Shown: piece after piece, positions 1-6,353 of the stretch
Layout of the letters: each line of letters opens with the position of its first letter
Position numbering within the stretch: the first letter of the stretch is position 1
Assembly: GCA_019894855.1 (NCBI GenBank)
Contig: JAGXNS010000007.1
Location: forward strand, 1 to 43,482
DNA: 43,482 nucleotides
Reading direction: 5' to 3'
Source of the DNA: Promethearchaeota archaeon
Lineage (GTDB): Archaea; Asgardarchaeota; Lokiarchaeia; Sigyniarchaeales; SOKP01
Notes under the pieces: model-generated
Told to the model about the DNA's origin: nothing
Database searches by the model: none
Seen by the model: only the letters and a program-made list of their open reading frames with translations
Program-made: the position numbers and the translations under genes

Positions 1-577
1 GCCTTTGAGTCCCTAAGTCTTCTCTAGACATGAAACATCCATATGAGGGATGAGAATGATACCAACCACAGATAAATTGCTTACTTTTTACAATATCTTC
101 ATAAGCTCGAGTAAAATTGTTATAATCTTTAATTTCAGCATAGACTGCCGTACCGTGCCCCATTGGATATGCATCTTCTAAATATAATATTCCATTGTCA
201 TATCTTCCAGCGAGTAACCCTATCACCTCAACCCAGTTCTCTTTCTTAATTTTAGAATTCGCATATTTTAAAGCATGACTTGAGATCTTGAGGATTGCTT
301 TTACCGTTATTTTTATCTTTGCAGAAATTTTATCACTTTTATTACCTTTAGCGACAGTTATTACAGGTTCCATAGGAATTGGTTCTAATTTGGTTTTTAT
401 ACCTTCTGAATGGTTTAAAGATTTCGCATCAAAAATTTCGGCAGTTATTTCTTCCTGTAATTCTTCGAGCTGTAATTCGGTATATACTTCCTCAAGTATT
501 TCTTTTTTGATCTTTTCCTTTATTTTTTGTTTAATTGCATCTCTAATTTTTTCACCATTCTTATCGTCAATGTTCAT
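1..577 (-). CDS. JAMM/MPN+ metalloprotease, Rpn11-like deubiquitinase (3' end outside window)
   Basis: Zn-dependent isopeptidase of the Rpn11/CSN5 family, expected to remove or process the ubiquitin-like proteins encoded upstream. The ATG at 577 lies 4 bases past the E2 stop; 192 codons are visible before the window edge. Residues 1-60 are charged and probably helical. The MPN domain starts near residue 88. The JAMM signature is intact: E117 in VEVIGLLAG, H174 and H176 in WYHSHP, then S184 and D187 with the canonical spacing H-x7-S-x2-D. The tight spacing says it is co-transcribed and translationally coupled to E2. Family assignment is firm. Whether it acts on conjugates or on the ubiquitin precursor is inference. 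The missing C-terminus cannot be judged. Confidence 0.9.
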   Translation of the reverse strand, partial: MNIDDKNGEKIRDAIKQKIKEKIKKEILEEVYTELQLEELQEEITAEIFDAKSLNHSEGIKTKLEPIPMEPVITVAKGNKSDKISAKIKITVKAILKISSHALKYANSKIKKENWVEVIGLLAGRYDNGILYLEDAYPMGHGTAVYAEIKDYNNFTRAYEDIVKSKQFICGWYHSHPSYGCFMSREDLGTQR

Positions 578-581
578 AAAA

Positions 582-1109
582 TCACCATTTATCCTTGGCA
601 TACTTCTTTACTAAATTTTTAACTTTTTTATCAAAATATTTCGGATCTTTCATCATTTCTATAGCTGCCTTTTTATTAAACACATCAGTCGGATTAACAA
701 ATTTTCCTCGAGTGTTTAACATGGCAATTATTGCTTGAACAACTGTAACCGCTGTTTTTGAAGGACTCCATCCTCCCTTTTTGCCAATTAGAGACGGATC
801 TACTAAAGATAAGCAAATATTTCTTTGTCCTTTATATTCACTAGGTTTTGGCCAAAAATTTGGATGCCATATTGGTGTATGCAATCTAACAAAAGGAGGT
901 TGTTTAGGATATTGCGCAGGAAATTTCATTTCTAATCTAAATAAGCCCCCTGCATACGCTGTTCCTTTAGGCCCTTTAATCGTAATTGCTAAATGATCAA
1001 TACTCTTCTTTTTCGGATTAAAAGGTTTTAATTGAACAATACTTCCATTTTTTGCCATTTTCTTCAACCCCGCAAAATCTCGAGAAACTCGACTACTTCT
1101 TATACTCAT
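582..1109 (-). CDS. E2 ubiquitin-conjugating enzyme (UBC fold)
   Basis: 175 aa, the usual size of a single-domain E2. It accepts the ubiquitin-like protein from E1 on a cysteine and passes it to a target or E3. The UBC core runs from about residue 7 to 165. Visible hallmarks are YPKQPPFVRLHTPIWHPN (the HPN at 82-84), the active-site Cys99 in RNICLSLVD, W114-S-P after the catalytic loop, and the helix VVQAIIAML. An insert of about 8 residues separates HPN from the cysteine, and a lysine/glycine-rich loop precedes W114. The C-terminus is a lysine-rich helix. A GGGGTTG stretch about 6 bases before the ATG may be a weak SD. The gene sits 59 bases after E1 and 4 bases before the JAMM gene, which supports one ubiquitin operon. 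Confidence 0.95.
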   Translation of the reverse strand: MSIRSSRVSRDFAGLKKMAKNGSIVQLKPFNPKKKSIDHLAITIKGPKGTAYAGGLFRLEMKFPAQYPKQPPFVRLHTPIWHPNFWPKPSEYKGQRNICLSLVDPSLIGKKGGWSPSKTAVTVVQAIIAMLNTRGKFVNPTDVFNKKAAIEMMKDPKYFDKKVKNLVKKYAKDKW

Positions 1110-1168
1110 ATTTTCAACCCCGTTTTTTTTTATTTTTTTTTACGTATTTTAATTTTTATTATATTTTT

Positions 1169-2404
1169 CTATTTTAATTTCAGGGTAACAAAAATCTCCC
1201 CATTTTTAAAACCTGCTACGGTTAAATATTCGAAATTTCTTAAATTATTTTCAGCAACACTCTTTTCCAAATCTAATATTAGGATATCGTTAAAATCTAA
1301 TAATGTTATAATCGGTTCAAGATCAGGCTCCAATTGGAATCCATTTTTTTCTAATGTTTTAATTATATTCATGCAAATTGAGTTAGGGTTCATTTTTATC
1401 ACAACTCTTCTTCTTTTTTTCCCGCATTGAATACACTCTGGATTTCTTTCCTTTTCAATATGATATAATTTCATGGTCATTGCATTAAAAATAACGTAAT
1501 TTGTTACAGGTTCTCCTAATCCTTTATGTCCTTTTTTCCAGTGAATTATTTTCACTACTTCATGAGATTGTAATGCAGAAATAACTGAATTAATAGTAAT
1601 GATACCAGGATCGTGACGATCAATAATTATTACGATATCATCTTCAGTAAATTCGGGTAAGAAATTATGTTTATTTACTAATTCATTTGTGACTTTCTGA
1701 ATATATCTTATATCGTTTATATTTTTGGGACTAGGATCCCTATCAAATTTCTCTTTGAAAGCCATATCTCCCTTAAATAAGCAATGAATTCTTTTTCGAG
1801 GGATACCCACCACAGTACAAGCTGCCATTTCATCGTTTTCTAATTCTGGTAGTGGATTACATTCATAACATGCATTTCTATAAGGAAAAATCGTATATAC
1901 ATGACCATGATAACCAGAAACTCCTCCATCTACTAAAGGTTTTCTAAATCTTACACTTTGAACGTTCAAGTTTAATCGAGCGTTCATCGAATCAAGACCC
2001 CCTACAATAACATCCGCTTTATTATATAATGAGGGGTCTAATCTTTCTAAGGATGTGTGATATCCTTTTACTGTGATATTTGGATTAATTTCACGTAATT
2101 TTTTTGCAGCTGCAAGAGCTTTAGGGGAACCTAATTTCGCACCAACAAAAAGTAGTTGCCTATTAAAATTGGAATGCTCAATAATATCTAAGTCAACAAG
2201 ATCTAAATGACCAACACCTAACATTGCTAAGTTTTTAGCAATTTCACAGCCTAAACCACCCACTCCAGCGATTAATACTCTGGAGTTTTTGATTAGTTTT
2301 TGGGACCAACCTTCTAAGCGAAATTGCCGATCATATAAATCTCTCTCTTCTTCTGACATTCCTTTTGCAAAAAAATCTGAATCTTTACGCAATATTATCA
2401 CCAT
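1169..2404 (-). CDS. E1 ubiquitin-activating enzyme, UBA2/UBA3-like
   Basis: 411 aa. It adenylates the C-terminal glycine of a ubiquitin-like protein and holds it as a thioester. The Rossmann nucleotide-binding motif GVGGLG is at 47-52, followed by DLDIIEHSNFNRQ (ATP/Mg site). Cys196 in AACTVVGIPRKRIHC matches the catalytic cysteine of UBA2/UBA3-type E1s. CxxC pairs at 179/182 and 324/327 would bind the structural zinc. Residues about 335-411 look like a small C-terminal ubiquitin-fold (E2-recruiting) domain. A real Cys domain sets it apart from MoeB/ThiF, and the sequence does not resemble UBA5. Met16 (MSEEERDLYDRQ) is an alternative start. No clear SD precedes Met1, unlike the ubiquitin gene upstream. 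Confidence 0.94.
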   Translation of the reverse strand: MVIILRKDSDFFAKGMSEEERDLYDRQFRLEGWSQKLIKNSRVLIAGVGGLGCEIAKNLAMLGVGHLDLVDLDIIEHSNFNRQLLFVGAKLGSPKALAAAKKLREINPNITVKGYHTSLERLDPSLYNKADVIVGGLDSMNARLNLNVQSVRFRKPLVDGGVSGYHGHVYTIFPYRNACYECNPLPELENDEMAACTVVGIPRKRIHCLFKGDMAFKEKFDRDPSPKNINDIRYIQKVTNELVNKHNFLPEFTEDDIVIIIDRHDPGIITINSVISALQSHEVVKIIHWKKGHKGLGEPVTNYVIFNAMTMKLYHIEKERNPECIQCGKKRRRVVIKMNPNSICMNIIKTLEKNGFQLEPDLEPIITLLDFNDILILDLEKSVAENNLRNFEYLTVAGFKNGEIFVTLKLK

Positions 2405-2423
2405 TAATTTTAATTGAAAAAAT

Positions 2424-2451
2424 AAAAAAAAATGAAGGGCTTATTGCCCTT
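2424..2451 (-). terminator. Hairpin plus T-run between the ubiquitin-like gene and E1
   Basis: Read on the minus strand, AAGGGC, a 5-base loop (AATAA) and GCCCTT form a perfect 6-bp GC-containing stem. It is followed after CA by nine T, then ATTTTTT. It lies between the ubiquitin-like stop (2499) and the E1 start (2404). Archaeal RNA polymerase terminates at T-runs, so partial termination here would give more ubiquitin mRNA than E1/E2/JAMM mRNA. The structure is seen directly; its function is inferred. Confidence 0.55.
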
Positions 2452-2498
2452 ATCATATATTATATTTTATGAAAAGAATTATTTAAAAGTATCCAGCT

Positions 2499-2828
2499 TT
2501 AATTTCCAGCTGTACTCGCTGGAATTAACAAAATATCGTCGCCGTCGCTTACATTATAGTCTTTTAATTGACTCCCTTCATCCATTGTTCTTCCACCGGA
2601 ACTAAGGTGAAATTCATCGGGATCAAGGCCAAATAAATTTCCTAATGTTTGTTTGATATCACTTACGTGATTAGCGTCATTTACGGTTAACTTTTCCTTC
2701 TTTTCACCAGGACCAATAGTTGACATGAAATATAAAGTCAATTTCTTGCCTGTTGAGGGTACTTTGCTTGATGGGGTTTTAGACTTAACTGGCTCTAATT
2801 CTTCATCAAAATCTTCATCAAAACTCAT
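2499..2828 (-). CDS. Ubiquitin-like protein with acidic N-terminal tail (ends Ala-Gly-Asn)
   Basis: 109 aa. Residues 1-27 are an acidic, Ser/Pro-rich tail. Residues 28-105 form a beta-grasp ubiquitin-like domain: KKLTLYFMSTIGPGEKK, then a helix VSDIKQTLGNLFGL, then SSGGRTMDEGSQLKDYNVSDGDDILLI, corresponding to ubiquitin's KI-x-DKEGIPPDQQ-to-LxDYNI portion. It lies upstream of E1, E2 and JAMM on the same strand, so it is the probable substrate of that cascade. The C-terminus reads IPASTAGN: one glycine plus one residue, not the usual Gly-Gly. Removal of Asn would expose Ala-Gly, exactly the end of the paralogue at 4684-5070. A strong SD (AAGGAGTG) stands 8 bases before the ATG, suggesting high expression. 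Confidence 0.92.
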   Translation of the reverse strand: MSFDEDFDEELEPVKSKTPSSKVPSTGKKLTLYFMSTIGPGEKKEKLTVNDANHVSDIKQTLGNLFGLDPDEFHLSSGGRTMDEGSQLKDYNVSDGDDILLIPASTAGN

Positions 2829-2855
2829 TCAAATCACTCCTTTATTTTTTTAATT

Positions 2856-2875
2856 TAAGTTTTTTTTAAAACTTA
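2856..2875. promoter_or_regulatory. Perfect 8-bp inverted repeat upstream of the ubiquitin-like gene
   Basis: TAAGTTTT and AAAACTTA flank a 4-base T loop, about 28-47 bases before the ubiquitin-like start, in the 266-bp space shared with the divergent winged-helix gene. It could be an operator or a 5' UTR hairpin. The AT-rich background makes chance plausible. Confidence 0.3.
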
Positions 2876-3010
2876 ATACTATCATGAATTAGATGATATT
2901 AAAAACCCATTGGAATGATTTTGAAGTTTTTTAAGTTTTATTTGAAATGTAAGTATCTATATTATAAAGCCTAATAAAATATATTTATAAATTAAATGAA
3001 CGTCTATCAA

Positions 3011-3020
3011 TATATATAAG
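3011..3020 (+). promoter_or_regulatory. Candidate TATA box for the winged-helix gene
   Basis: TATATATAAG lies about 75-84 bases before the ATG at 3095, which would imply a 5' UTR of roughly 50 bases. It is assigned by sequence and position only. Confidence 0.35.
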
Positions 3021-3094
3021 TAGGAAAATATCGTTTTAGAGAGAAGATTTGATTATACAAATCAGTTAATTCAACACGTTAAAATAAATTGCTC

Positions 3095-3772
3095 ATGAGC
3101 ACTACGGATAGCCTTCAATCTATTGTTTGCGAAATAATAAAGGAATACTTACAAAAGAAACCTTTCTTTTCAATAGAAGATATTGTAGTGTTCATCAATA
3201 ATAGAGTAAGAACTAACCCTAATTTAAACAGAAACAGCATTGAACTCATCATTAAAAATCTCATTAAAAAAAGAATTCTGATCCCTGGAACCAAATTAAT
3301 GAAGAATAACATCATTGAGCATCCAATAAGAAATGAAATCTATAATTATATAAGAAAGAATCCATCTAACATTAACGATATAATGAAAGCAATCAATATT
3401 GGAAGTAATCAAGCGTTATGGCATTTATCCTGTTTAGAAAAATTTAGATTTACACGATCAAAAAAAATCGATAATCAAAGAATGATTTTTGAATATGAAT
3501 CAAATTCAGATTTAGATGAGTTGTATTACTATTTAAAACAGGATATTGTACGAGATATTATCAACTTTCTGAAAAAAGAACGCAATGCCTTTAAAATCAC
3601 GGATATAGTTGCTAACATAAAAAGAAATTACAATACAGTAAAGAAATACCTTGAAATATTAAGAAATCTCAAAATAGTAAAAATTGAAAAAAATAAAAAA
3701 AGAGTGCTATATAGATTAGACATCGAGAAATATGATAAAATTAGGAAATCAATTATTGAAGGGGAATTATAA
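3095..3772 (+). CDS. Winged-helix DNA-binding protein with three HTH-like segments
   Basis: 225 aa from the ATG at 3095; a TTG two codons upstream is possible. Three consecutive helical/winged segments are visible: about residues 5-68, 72-137 (HPIRNEIYNYIRKNPSNI, with a QALWHLSCLEKFRF recognition-like helix) and 148-215 (DIINFLKKERNAFKITDIV, with YNTVKKYLEILRNLKIV). Each ends in a basic wing-like strand. The middle and last segments resemble archaeal MarR/ArsR-type winged helices. No ligand-binding domain or metal site is seen. It is divergent from the ubiquitin operon and 79 bases ahead of the membrane-anchored ubiquitin-like gene, so control of this locus is a reasonable guess but untested. 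Confidence 0.8.
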   Translation: MSTTDSLQSIVCEIIKEYLQKKPFFSIEDIVVFINNRVRTNPNLNRNSIELIIKNLIKKRILIPGTKLMKNNIIEHPIRNEIYNYIRKNPSNINDIMKAINIGSNQALWHLSCLEKFRFTRSKKIDNQRMIFEYESNSDLDELYYYLKQDIVRDIINFLKKERNAFKITDIVANIKRNYNTVKKYLEILRNLKIVKIEKNKKRVLYRLDIEKYDKIRKSIIEGEL

Positions 3773-3851
3773 AAATTACGAATTTATTCCAATGGAATTT
3801 ATATTTTGAATTATATATTAGAAAATTAGAGAATACTATACTCAAAAAATC

Positions 3852-4640
3852 ATGAAGAAAAAATATAGAGTTTTAAATATCATAACTCTTTATGTTGTTT
3901 TCGCTTTAGTTTATTTGGTTTTCTTCCTATTACAATTAGATAGTTTACCATTATTTCTCTTTCTAACTATTGGGAGTGTTGCTGTATTATCTACAGGCAC
4001 GATTTATACCGTTGTTCAATCTAAAAGCAGTCCAGGGAGGAGGATAAAAAAGGATAAATATTATCAAAAACCAAAATCAATCAAAAGAACTTCGAGTGAT
4101 CTGATTGAGGATTACATCGAAGCCATGCCATTAATAGATCAATACGCTGATACTGATGAAACTTTTGAAAATATTGAATCAATCGACGATTATATTTTTA
4201 CTTTTTTCACTCAGGAAGTATTAGATAAAATCGATTTGTTAGGGTTTTCAAAAATGGATAAAATCTTTTTTATCAGAGAGATGTTGTATTTTGATCCTAA
4301 CGAGAGAAAGCAACTAATTGAAGATATTTTAAAAAATAAAGATATCACTGATGAACAGATAAAATACAACCCTCCATTAAACGCGATTGGAATGGATGAC
4401 AAAATACGCGTTTATATAAGATCGTTAGTCGAACCGGGTGAGAAAACCAAGATAAATATTATTGAAACCTCTGAATTAATAGATATAATCAAGGAACAAA
4501 TTGGAATTCTATTTGATTATAGCTTAGAGGATTTTCTCTTATCCACAGGAGGGATATTATTAGACGAGACTAAGCAAATAAAGGACTATTTTATTGATGA
4601 TGATGACGAAATTGCTTTGATTCCATCGAGAAAAAAATGA
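3852..4640 (+). CDS. Membrane-anchored protein with C-terminal ubiquitin-like domain
   Basis: 262 aa. Two hydrophobic helices (about residues 8-29 and 34-54) form an N-terminal hairpin anchor, followed by a basic stretch (SSPGRRIKKDK) that predicts a cytoplasmic remainder. Residues 70-185 are a charged, mostly helical region of unknown fold. Residues 183-262 are a ubiquitin-like domain clearly related to the two free ones here. It shares the PGEK turn (LVEPGEKTK against TIGPGEKKE), the helix (LIDIIKEQIGILF), LSTGG, a DY turn and DDEIALIPS. It ends in RKK with no glycine, so it cannot be conjugated through its C-terminus. It may act as a membrane docking domain for E1/E2 or for binding partners. 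Confidence is high for the domain layout and low for function. Confidence 0.88.
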   Translation: MKKKYRVLNIITLYVVFALVYLVFFLLQLDSLPLFLFLTIGSVAVLSTGTIYTVVQSKSSPGRRIKKDKYYQKPKSIKRTSSDLIEDYIEAMPLIDQYADTDETFENIESIDDYIFTFFTQEVLDKIDLLGFSKMDKIFFIREMLYFDPNERKQLIEDILKNKDITDEQIKYNPPLNAIGMDDKIRVYIRSLVEPGEKTKINIIETSELIDIIKEQIGILFDYSLEDFLLSTGGILLDETKQIKDYFIDDDDEIALIPSRKK

Positions 4641-4683
4641 AATAGAAAAAATATTTTTAAAATTTTTTGTCCTTCCAATATAT

Positions 4684-5070
4684 TCAGCCAGCAATGCTAG
4701 CTGGAATTATTAAAATGTCATCTCCATCAGTTACGTTGTAATCACTTAGCTGGTTATTCTCATCCATAGTTACTCCTCCAGAAGATAAATGAAAATCAGA
4801 TGGATCTAAAGCAAATAAATTTGCTACAGTATCCTTGATGTCTCCAACTTTATTCCCTGTGAATACAAGCAATTTTTGTTTTTTCTCCCCTGGGCCTATA
4901 GTGGACAGAAAAAAAACTGAAATCTTTTTTCCTTCAGAAGAAATTTTGTGTTCTGGAGTCTTGGCTCTAAAATCTTTCGTAGGGTGCTTTGTAGAGGGCT
5001 CGTCATAATCTTCCTCCAAGTTTTCATCAAAATCCTCATCAAATTCTTCGTCAAACCCATCTTCATCCAT
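4684..5070 (-). CDS. Second ubiquitin-like protein, highly acidic N-terminal tail (ends Ala-Gly)
   Basis: 128 aa. The first 25 residues are almost all Asp/Glu/Phe (a DFDE-type repeat), then a Lys/Thr/Pro linker. Residues 47-126 form a ubiquitin-like domain very close to the one at 2499-2828: STIGPGEKKQK, DIKDTVANLFALDP, FHLSSGGVTMDE, LSDYNVTDGDDILII. The C-terminus is IPASIAG with the stop directly after glycine, so no processing is needed. It is convergent with the membrane-anchored ubiquitin-like gene (43 bases apart) and outside the E1/E2 operon, which allows separate control. It is a likely alternative modifier for the same E1. Confidence 0.9.
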   Translation of the reverse strand: MDEDGFDEEFDEDFDENLEEDYDEPSTKHPTKDFRAKTPEHKISSEGKKISVFFLSTIGPGEKKQKLLVFTGNKVGDIKDTVANLFALDPSDFHLSSGGVTMDENNQLSDYNVTDGDDILIIPASIAG

Positions 5071-5249: not shown

Positions 5250-6353
5250 ATGAAAGAGAAGCCTATTCCAAAGTATCAAATTCGAGAAAAAACGCCCGAA
5301 GAGCAACTAGATACCCTCCCTAATGCGAAATTACTCAAAAAAATTAAGGAAGAAAGAATTAAATTAAATAGAGAGAAAACTGAATGGGAGCGAATTATTA
5401 ATAAAATTGATGGTTATCAAGATAACATTCAAGATTTAGAAAAAAAAAGAAAAGAAAAAGAACTTCAAGTAAGGGGTCTTCAAAACCAACACGAACAACT
5501 AAAAGGCAAATTAGACAATATGAGAAACGAAATAAAAGAAAGTAAAAATAATCTCAATGAGAAAGAAAGGGAGTTAGACCAGAAAAATGCTGACCTAGAG
5601 CGGAATCAAGAGAGATTAGAAGGATTAAGAGACGAATTAGAAAGTGAGAAGAAATATATAAAAAGAGAAAAAGAAAAAGCAACAGAAAGAATTAAAGAAA
5701 TTAAAACCAAGTTGCCCGGAATGGAACGGAGAGAGAGTGCGTTAGAGAGAACAATTGAAAAGTTGGAAAACAATTTAATGGATTTAAGAAACGAAGCTAA
5801 GAGTTTAACTAGAGAAAGAGATAACTTAAACACAGAAATCAATGGTTTGAGAAGAGAGATAGTAGATGAAAAAAATCGAATTGATGACGAGAAGAGGAGA
5901 TTAAAAGATGAAAAGGAAAAGGTTCGCTATAAGAAAAACGACTTAAGTCTTCAAGCTCGTGATATTGAGAAAAAAAAAGAAAAATTGGGAAAATTTAAAG
6001 AAAATGTAGATCACGATGTAAAAGATTTAGAAAGAAAGAAAAAAGGGCAGGAAGTAAGATTAAAAGAATTAGATAGGAAGGTACCTAAGGCAGAAGATAC
6101 TTATTTTTCCTTAGAACATAAAATTCGTAATTCAGAAAATAAACTGAAAAGTTTAAGAAATGAAATTAAAAAATTAGAAAGGGAAAAATCGAAAATAGAG
6201 GATGAAAAATTTTCAATTAGAAAGGAGAGGCAAAGATTAGGCAGCGATAAAGAGAGATTTCTTAAAGAAAAAAGAGATTTTGAGAGAGAATTAAAAAAAA
6301 CAAAGGAAATACCAAAATATAAAATCAAATCAAAAACACCTTCGAAATATTAA
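5250..6353 (+). CDS. Long coiled-coil protein with matching terminal motifs
   Basis: 367 aa, almost entirely Lys/Glu/Arg/Leu heptads from about residue 25 to 350, so a long, probably dimeric, coiled coil with no membrane segment. The two ends carry the same short motif: IPKYQIREKTP at residues 6-16 and IPKYKIKSKTP at 354-364, each followed by only a few residues or by the coil. The coil therefore looks like a rod or spacer with identical hooks. The same K-T-P core occurs in the linkers of both free ubiquitin-like proteins nearby. The nucleotidyltransferase gene starts 20 bases downstream, so they are probably co-transcribed. No family was recognised. Confidence 0.85.
   Translation: MKEKPIPKYQIREKTPEEQLDTLPNAKLLKKIKEERIKLNREKTEWERIINKIDGYQDNIQDLEKKRKEKELQVRGLQNQHEQLKGKLDNMRNEIKESKNNLNEKERELDQKNADLERNQERLEGLRDELESEKKYIKREKEKATERIKEIKTKLPGMERRESALERTIEKLENNLMDLRNEAKSLTRERDNLNTEINGLRREIVDEKNRIDDEKRRLKDEKEKVRYKKNDLSLQARDIEKKKEKLGKFKENVDHDVKDLERKKKGQEVRLKELDRKVPKAEDTYFSLEHKIRNSENKLKSLRNEIKKLEREKSKIEDEKFSIRKERQRLGSDKERFLKEKRDFERELKKTKEIPKYKIKSKTPSKY

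Follow-up and report, generated by a model that had tools for sequence, protein, structure and literature searches.

Clustered ubiquitin genes have been reported in Loki-, Hel- and Heimdallarchaeota (PMC9192718, PMC5654768), and E1, E2, E3 and MPN proteins are shown in a figure legend of an ESCRT survey (PMC10936438). In Caldiarchaeum subterraneum, ub, E2, E1 and srfp lie together with rpn11 in the opposite direction (PMC5654768). We analyzed a ubiquitin-like locus at the start of contig JAGXNS010000007.1 of a Promethearchaeota archaeon (assembly GCA_019894855.1). The entire contig (C148 of genome G000, positions 1-43482), 43,482 nucleotides long, is called the window; it belongs to an Asgard bin of 2.5 Mb that is 83.65% complete with 5.11% contamination. 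The locus and the Caldiarchaeum operon are alike in having a ubiquitin fold, an E1 with its cysteine, an E2, a RING-type protein (RING-like on our side, and seen in relatives) and an Rpn11-like JAMM protease (PMC5654768, PMC6043591), and the trimming of Caldiarchaeum pro-ubiquitin by the JAMM protease (PMC6043591) has a likeness in the ubiquitin-like proteins (UBLs) described here, which end in or near the residues STAG. The two differ in that here the genes for UBL, E1, E2, JAMM and RING (the last known from relatives of the locus) are on one strand in that order, and the modifier ends in Ala-Gly rather than Gly-Gly. In the relatives, moreover, the RING is fused to a membrane domain and one of its zinc ligands is changed, and the locus has an extra membrane UBL that lacks a terminal glycine as well as a coiled-coil protein bearing the motif Lys-Thr-Pro (K-T-P).

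The conserved terminus of the modifier is Ala-Gly, not Gly-Gly. Judging from homology and gene order, the locus probably encodes an Asgard ubiquitin-like conjugation cascade that uses this terminus and is located at the membrane. The genes, with coordinates in the window and strand, are:

2..601, minus strand: JAMM/MPN metalloprotease, Rpn11-like (Pfam JAB, 4e-12), cut by the contig end after HSHP...SxxD
582..1109, minus strand: E2 conjugating enzyme, 175 aa (Pfam UQ_con, 6e-26), HPN at 82-84, C99, PxxPP and WSPS loops
1169..2404, minus strand: E1 activating enzyme, 411 aa (Pfam ThiF, 2e-57), catalytic C196, two CxxC pairs
2499..2828, minus strand: UBL1, probable main modifier (Pfam ubiquitin, 5.8e-8), acidic tail, SKTP at about 2772-2783, end S-T-A-G-N with the STAG codons at about 2505-2516
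3089..3772, plus strand: winged-helix protein, ArsR/HTH_5-like (Pfam HTH_5, 2e-5), likely ATG at 3095
3852..4640, plus strand: mUBL, the membrane UBL (Pfam ubiquitin at residues 194-256, 5e-3, under the curated cut-off)
4684..5070, minus strand: UBL2 (Pfam ubiquitin, 3e-4, under the cut-off), longer acidic tail, AKTP at about 4954-4965
5250..6353, plus strand: coiled-coil partner, K-T-P near both ends (...REKTPEEQ..., ...KSKTPSKY)

An initial annotation, made from the letters of the window, had placed here a JAMM protease, an E2, an E1 and three ubiquitin-like genes, with catalytic residues intact and with two of the ubiquitin-like genes, one of them membrane-anchored, next to the core set. 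The expected Pfam families were matched, E1 C196, E2 C99 and the JAMM HSHP motif were verified by position, and UBL2 and mUBL were found adjoining. The three ubiquitin-like proteins are not equivalent, as described below: UBL1 and UBL2 are possible modifiers, and mUBL, without a terminal glycine, is not expected to be one. The Ala-Gly ends, the missing glycine of mUBL, the winged-helix gene and the coiled-coil gene are additions to that annotation.

Ala-Gly ends of the modifiers

To compare the locus with its relatives, we used an E2 profile search of named genomes, which gave 104 relatives, and retained the best 80 loci. Their records are titled Loki-, Hel-, Sigyn-, Borr-, Sif-, Hod- and Heimdallarchaea. 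The 80 loci are related rather than independent, and the counts given here ignore this kinship; some isolates contribute two loci, several loci are from species that are also in our genome set (for example, genome G054 is locus L101), and runs of N are present in five. Open reading frames were obtained with a simple script, and part of the E-values from hidden Markov models apply to small sets of such frames. The profiles derive from 16 loci, all in the same family. For the UBL profile the members used end in STAG, and UBLs ending otherwise could have escaped detection.

UBL1 ends S-T-A-G-N, UBL2 ends exactly S-I-A-G, and mUBL ends I-P-S-R-K-K; both UBL2 and mUBL align with UBL1 over the whole ubiquitin domain. 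STAG was present in all 77 UBL genes located no more than 1.5 kb upstream of an E1 gene, followed by no residues (37 genes), one (17), two (16), three (5), four (1) or five (1). Trimming is therefore needed in 40 of the 77, and the JAMM protease could carry it out. All 27 UBLs at the position of UBL2 end in S[TIV]AG plus 0-6 residues, as do, with 0-7 residues, 105 of the 106 short UBLs overall; the remaining one is cut. We take UBL1 to be the probable main modifier and UBL2 a possible second, paralogous one. The same genome has a further UBL gene (L066:6735-6926, contig C168), whose product ends in STAGCFE and, across 60 residues, has 83% identity to UBL1. The sequence before this gene is incomplete and no E1 was found within its 7.4 kb contig; either a paralog or strain variation could account for it.

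The membrane UBL was found 29 times, once cut by a contig end, and none of the other 28 proteins has a terminal glycine. Lacking this residue, mUBL would not be expected to enter into a thioester or act as a modifier, and it should not be conjugated. It consists of an N-terminal hydrophobic stretch (residues 5-55, about two helices), a helical middle and a C-terminal ubiquitin fold. An AlphaFold model had a mean predicted local distance difference test score (pLDDT) of 63, mostly 70-88 in the UBL part, which is too weak to name the middle domain. In a tree of UBLs, the mUBL group is firm (100/99) and joins a fusion protein of locus L126 that ends in SRVAG (98/96); the tree has too few columns for dating the duplications.

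The same UBL is found at the C-terminus of larger proteins, encoded by nine related genes. Six of these end in STAG plus 0-6 residues (L104, L105, L106, L108, L114, L120), and the others end in SSRAG (L124), SRVAG (L126) and SRVAE (L127). If the E1 accepts such fusions, then entire proteins could become attached to targets. The following were characterized:

L120:1910-3718 and L124:5032-6774: HerA-like ATPase
L106:5058-6755: vWA-like, judged by eye (read via the copy in L056)
L104:14178-15068: N-terminal segment with Cys pairs (read via the copy in L055)
L126:10266-11048: N-terminal segment with Cys pairs, with no firm domain besides the UBL

Gene order, enzymes and related clusters

The initial annotation had proposed a search for the same gene order in other Asgard genomes, and the order recurs. 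UBL, E1, E2 and JAMM genes are consecutive in 64 of the 80 loci, and L119, whose E2 is broken, keeps the order. In six loci titled Heimdallarchaeota (probably also in L138) the arrangement is E2-JAMM-RING and then UBL-E1, and the remaining eight start, stop or have an assembly gap within the cluster. The annotation had matched this order to known operons of Caldiarchaeum and Asgards; it is not the Caldiarchaeum order, and it marks a different Asgard cluster. Because the synteny recurs in related loci, chance or contig misassembly as the source of the order was ruled out. The exact order coiled-coil, UBL2, mUBL, winged-helix, UBL1, E1, E2, JAMM, RING was found in 21 of the 80 loci. All 29 loci with mUBL have an E2 at least 77% identical to that of the window. 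Of 58 genomes searched, counting the own genome, 43 have an E2 of the window type (at least 59% identity); in G001 it is only a 22-residue fragment.

Adenylation and cysteine patterns, expressed as loose regular expressions, were present in all 72 full-length E1 relatives. The best solved relatives of the window E1 are UBA2 (the SUMO E1), UBA3 (the NEDD8 E1) and a ubiquitin E1, all at about 1e-34, and matches to MoeB (5e-28) and ThiF (2e-20) were weaker; its C-terminal extension is likely similar to a ubiquitin-fold domain (UFD-like). For E2, whose nearest solved relatives by profile are eukaryotic E2s, HPN...C and PxxPP were found in 78 of 78 full-length relatives and W[ST]PS in 68, and C99 is invariant among eight aligned sequences. 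The sequence features of a conjugation system, E1 adenylation motifs and cysteine, E2 HPN and cysteine, and a Gly-ended modifier (UBL1/UBL2), are present. In a locus titled Helarchaeota, a 95 aa gene separates the E1 and E2 genes (L130:9698-9985); scanned as its copy L062:9216-9503, it had no Pfam match over the cut-off.

The E2 and JAMM genes overlap by 20 bp, assuming that JAMM starts at its first ATG. In the window the JAMM protein has 200 residues, with HSHP at 182, whereas the 74 relatives of at least 200 aa span 229-305. The motif H[ST]HP..S..D was found in all 74 and was absent from five shorter rows. Because the window copy is cut after the motif, the structure search was done with the full-length protein of L072; its best match was Caldiarchaeum Rpn11 (6fjv/6fju, 2.7e-16), followed by eukaryotic Rpn11 and CSN5. 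The arrangement E...HxHP...SxxD, with Rpn11 as closest solved relative, is that of an Rpn11-type JAMM protease. Six JAMM matches were found in the own genome: the window copy, three on contig C153 and others on C17 and C115. Those on C153 (locus L064, 9.2 kb) are JAMM-domain proteins of 316, 484 and 460 aa with long, helical-looking tails.

Another kind of Asgard cluster has a small RING, a ubiquitin ending in Gly-Gly, an E2 and an E1 close together, in varying order and strand. We found such clusters in genomes G056, G057, G047, G051 and G054, and in G052 without a found UBL. They resemble the locus in having a homologous RING core, UBL, E1 and E2, but their RING is small and soluble (76-103 aa) and five of five UBLs have a Gly-Gly tail. 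The own bin also has a Gly-Gly ubiquitin on contig C95 and, on C138, a second pair of E1 (525 aa) and E2 (169 aa) of the same families as the window enzymes; no RING or STAG-ended UBL was found on the 12.6 kb of C138. As a guess, the ubiquitin of C95 may be the partner of the C138 pair. E2 and E1 trees were built from the window and 21 of the 80 loci together with the other kinds, eukaryotic and Caldiarchaeum sequences not being in them. The E2 tree contains 22 window-type, 8 C138-type and 6 small-RING-type sequences, the E1 tree 22, 5 and 6, with one other sequence in addition, and each of the three kinds is split off by a well supported branch (E2: 99/98, 99/98, 99/93; E1: 99/97, 100/98, 100/100). 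By these branches, the window-type E1 and E2 are a clade separate from the small-RING and C138 kinds. The marks of the Caldiarchaeum and small-RING clusters are a Gly-Gly end, a shared E1/E2 clade (a comparison without Caldiarchaeum, which is absent from the trees) and a small soluble RING. Neither of the first two was found here, and the position of the third is occupied by the membrane RING in relatives and lies past the contig end in the window. Genome G052 has, in addition, a compact UBL-E1-E2-JAMM cluster (L168:3899-6341) whose UBL ends in SIAG plus eight residues and whose E1 and E2 are on long branches outside the three kinds.

Among eukaryotic modifiers, UFM1 ends in V-G and ATG8 and ATG12 end in a single exposed G, and are alike in lacking a Gly-Gly end; their enzymes, UBA5/UFC1 and ATG7/ATG3/ATG10, are unrelated classes of E1 and E2. 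Because the literature searched, supplements not covered, contains no description that we found of an Ala-Gly end, a membrane-fused RING or a Gly-less membrane UBL in this setting, we regard the cluster, by that literature, as a previously undescribed variant of known archaeal ubiquitin clusters. It may be drawn already in Supplementary Fig. 1 (Clusters I-III) of PMC5654768 or Supplementary Fig. 3 of PMC9192718.

Membrane RING-like protein, proposed cascade and alternatives

The initial annotation saw no E3 gene in the window and suggested that a RING protein might lie past base 1 or that the system works without one. In the first 16 loci that we compared (L047-L062), 15 continue beyond JAMM, and what comes next in each of these is a gene from one and the same family; L048 stops after E2. 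Among the 80 loci, JAMM is visible in 78 (L076 and L137 stop before it). A gene with a RING-like domain lies downstream on the same strand in 69 of the 78, and five more have the membrane part followed by the contig end (L082, L109, L110, L125, L133). The distance from JAMM is at most 500 bp in 73 of these 74 loci and 5.5 kb in L114. Of the other four, L071, L074 and L092 stop inside JAMM, and in L139 the membrane part is represented by no more than a weak fragment. Since this gene follows JAMM in relatives, the missing E3 of the window probably sits beyond base 1, in agreement with the first option of the annotation.

The membrane-RING protein has several hydrophobic segments (we say several because the segments counted overlap) and a C-terminal domain of the pattern C-x2-C...C-x2-C-x4-H...W...C-x2-C, in which the seven Cys/His ligands are present in 69 of 69 proteins. 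Conservation extends to an Ile (or Leu) following the first Cys and to the Trp of the helix, and we take both to belong to the presumed E2 contact face of RING domains, for the Trp on the basis of PMC5654768. A profile of the domain detected the small RING in all six small-RING clusters (E-values of 5e-6 to 1e-9, in a small set of open reading frames from 16 loci), and a profile of the full protein found the small RING of G056 at 5e-4 in a whole-genome search. A model of the domain (pLDDT 83.5) gave 495 Foldseek matches up to E 10, the best at 0.017, and 40 of the 50 listed have RING/U-box or ubiquitin-ligase titles. Match 31 is the RING of HRD1 (6f98). Eukaryotic membrane RING E3s of the HRD1 type also combine a multi-spanning membrane domain with a RING-type domain, a likeness that is likely an analogy. 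Overall, we read the protein as a membrane domain joined to a RING with an altered zinc site, a putative E3.

The full profile matched 57 of 148 Asgard genomes at 1e-10; in at least two of these, G042 and G097, the match covers just the RING part, in a short frame. Four listed genomes of a genus of the same family (g6) had no match, apart from a weak one (9e-4) for one of them in a separate search. In the own genome, Prok-RING_1 had five matches, three of them over the cut-off, and ESCRT UEV (PF05743) had none, with controls likewise without a match. A sixth gene follows the RING gene in Heimdall/Hod loci (L134:12480-13085, L136:12474-13052, L140:12689-13234) and encodes a hydrophobic protein. 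Two copies scanned had no Pfam match, the L134 copy matches the membrane part of the RING protein, and the family occurs in 12 of 45 loci examined.

In the cascade that we propose, JAMM would first remove the few residues after STAG where there are any, as in UBL1 (STAG-N). The E1 would adenylate the terminal Gly and accept the UBL on C196, and the UBL would pass to C99 of the E2. The membrane RING-like protein, expected past base 1, would then position the E2-bound UBL for the modification of proteins in or near the membrane, and JAMM would also take the tag off again. We infer all catalytic steps from homology, and the membrane role of the cascade is likewise putative. The unconjugated mUBL probably docks or restrains E1, E2 or E3 at the membrane, or may be a decoy, the least secure step in the scheme.

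The cascade is predicted from sequence, gene order, motifs and clades, and several observations weigh against it. Caldiarchaeum Rpn11 cuts a Gly77Ala ubiquitin precursor much more slowly than a Gly78Ala precursor (PMC6043591). By analogy, a JAMM protease acting on an Ala-Gly tag should have to be co-adapted to it; such a tag would also tend to escape Gly-Gly machinery. A search of the own genome for the missing end of JAMM with the 73-residue tail from L067 gave no matches at E 1, with no positive control, and a profile search of the same genome for the membrane RING also gave none. We take both as an assembly gap and not as absence, and the presence of the RING gene here is accordingly deduced from synteny. 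The remaining points concern the zinc domain and also favor the view that the downstream domain is a RING-derived docking or structural domain, with the membrane protein anchoring the complex and the E2 transferring the UBL directly. The ligand pair that is H-x2-H in six of six small RINGs is H-x2-E in 68 of 69 membrane-RING proteins and H-x2-A in one, which puts Glu or Ala in the position of the eighth cross-brace ligand. Pfam RING scans of three full proteins gave two matches below the cut-off and none for the third. All 495 Foldseek matches have E-values above 0.001, and chains of IFT-A or GATOR2 make up 10 of the 50 listed. Even so, we think this view unlikely, given the conserved residues of the presumed E2 contact face, the membrane-RING gene after JAMM in 74 of 78 loci, and the E2 loops, of which PxxPP is always and W[ST]PS mostly retained.

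A different view is that the locus is an ordinary Asgard or Caldiarchaeum ubiquitin operon, with the same system and modifier and trivial differences between lineages. Its UBL, E1, E2, JAMM and RING are all homologous to those of such operons, and published clusters from Loki-, Hel- and Heimdallarchaeota (PMC9192718) speak in its favor. We consider it improbable, because the E1 and E2 form a supported clade apart from the small-RING clusters, the modifiers of the two kinds differ (Gly-Gly in five of five small-RING UBLs, STAG in 77 of 77 here), gene order and RING architecture differ, and one genome, G054, has a small-RING cluster with a Gly-Gly tail and a STAG cluster side by side. It is established that ThiF-family E1s also serve sulfur transfer, which would allow UBL1 and UBL2 to be sulfur carriers like MoaD, ThiS or SAMP with the E1 acting in thiolation. 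This can be given hardly any weight: the operon has an E2 with catalytic Cys and conserved loops, a JAMM protease and a membrane RING, and the E1 is nearer to UBA2 and UBA3 than to MoeB or ThiF. Membership in the SAMP/Urm1 systems, which have no E2 and an E1 of the MoeB/ThiF type, was rejected because a dedicated E2 is present.

If the cascade is as proposed, then the locus is a natural experiment on the Gly-Gly end of ubiquitin, in which an E1-E2-JAMM set evolved with Ala-Gly, and two genomes seen, G000 and G054, also carry a Gly-Gly ubiquitin beside the Ala-Gly set. The locus can in this way be set beside the eukaryotic ubiquitin system as a natural comparison. A further suggestion is that archaeal relatives of eukaryotes may possess a ubiquitin ligase embedded in the membrane, a point that would bear on how the ubiquitylation and sorting of membrane proteins arose. 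Given that the modifiers and enzymes are small and probably soluble, the ideas of an Ala-Gly tag and a membrane ligase are testable in vitro.

K-T-P motif and neighboring genes

In the window, K-T-P is confined, among open reading frames of more than 90 aa, to UBL1, UBL2 and the two ends of the coiled-coil protein. Among the relatives, 97 of 106 short UBLs carry it, nearly always in the N-terminal tail (152 of 156 occurrences). Of 45 coiled-coil proteins, 44 have it as well, and tandem copies are frequent. The motif was present in five of nine UBL fusions and rare in E1 (2 of 75), E2 (3 of 81), JAMM (2 of 79) and winged-helix proteins (1 of 32). RING proteins (0 of 69, and 0 of 5 cut ones) and mUBL (0 of 29) lack it. 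For comparison with other genes we used two backgrounds, all open reading frames of at least 200 aa including antisense ones, and non-overlapping frames of at least 100 aa; of 698 other genes, 63 contain K-T-P. The density of the motif per 1000 residues was 12.2 in short UBLs, 6.75 in coiled-coil proteins and 0.31 in other genes, an enrichment uncorrected for composition, the coiled-coil protein being lysine-rich. The motif may be recognized by a common reader. We met no description of K-T-P in Asgard UBLs in the literature, in which no search was aimed at it.

A broader scheme, which we offer tentatively and hold to be some way short of probable, is that many Asgards run a second ubiquitin system next to one with Gly-Gly, the Ala-Gly and Gly-Gly tags being kept apart by the penultimate residue. 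The Ala-Gly system would be dedicated to the membrane by its RING-like ligase, with restraint by the Gly-less mUBL and with SKTP as an address motif shared between the tags and a coiled-coil organizer. UBL-fused proteins of some lineages (HerA-like ATPase, vWA-like and zinc-ribbon-like proteins) may be attached to targets.

The coiled-coil gene (5250-6353) belongs to the locus. It adjoins UBL1 also where the mUBL insert is absent, and in distant loci, if present, it is mostly immediately beside UBL1. The winged-helix gene is divergent from the UBL1 operon and adjoins mUBL both within the genus and elsewhere in the family, in other genera, and its product is a possible regulator. At the position that the K-T-P coiled-coil gene has elsewhere, L136:13071-13805 encodes a basic, repetitive protein with K-[IVL]-P-K units, divergent from the UBL gene, and members of its family were found in 7 of 45 loci.

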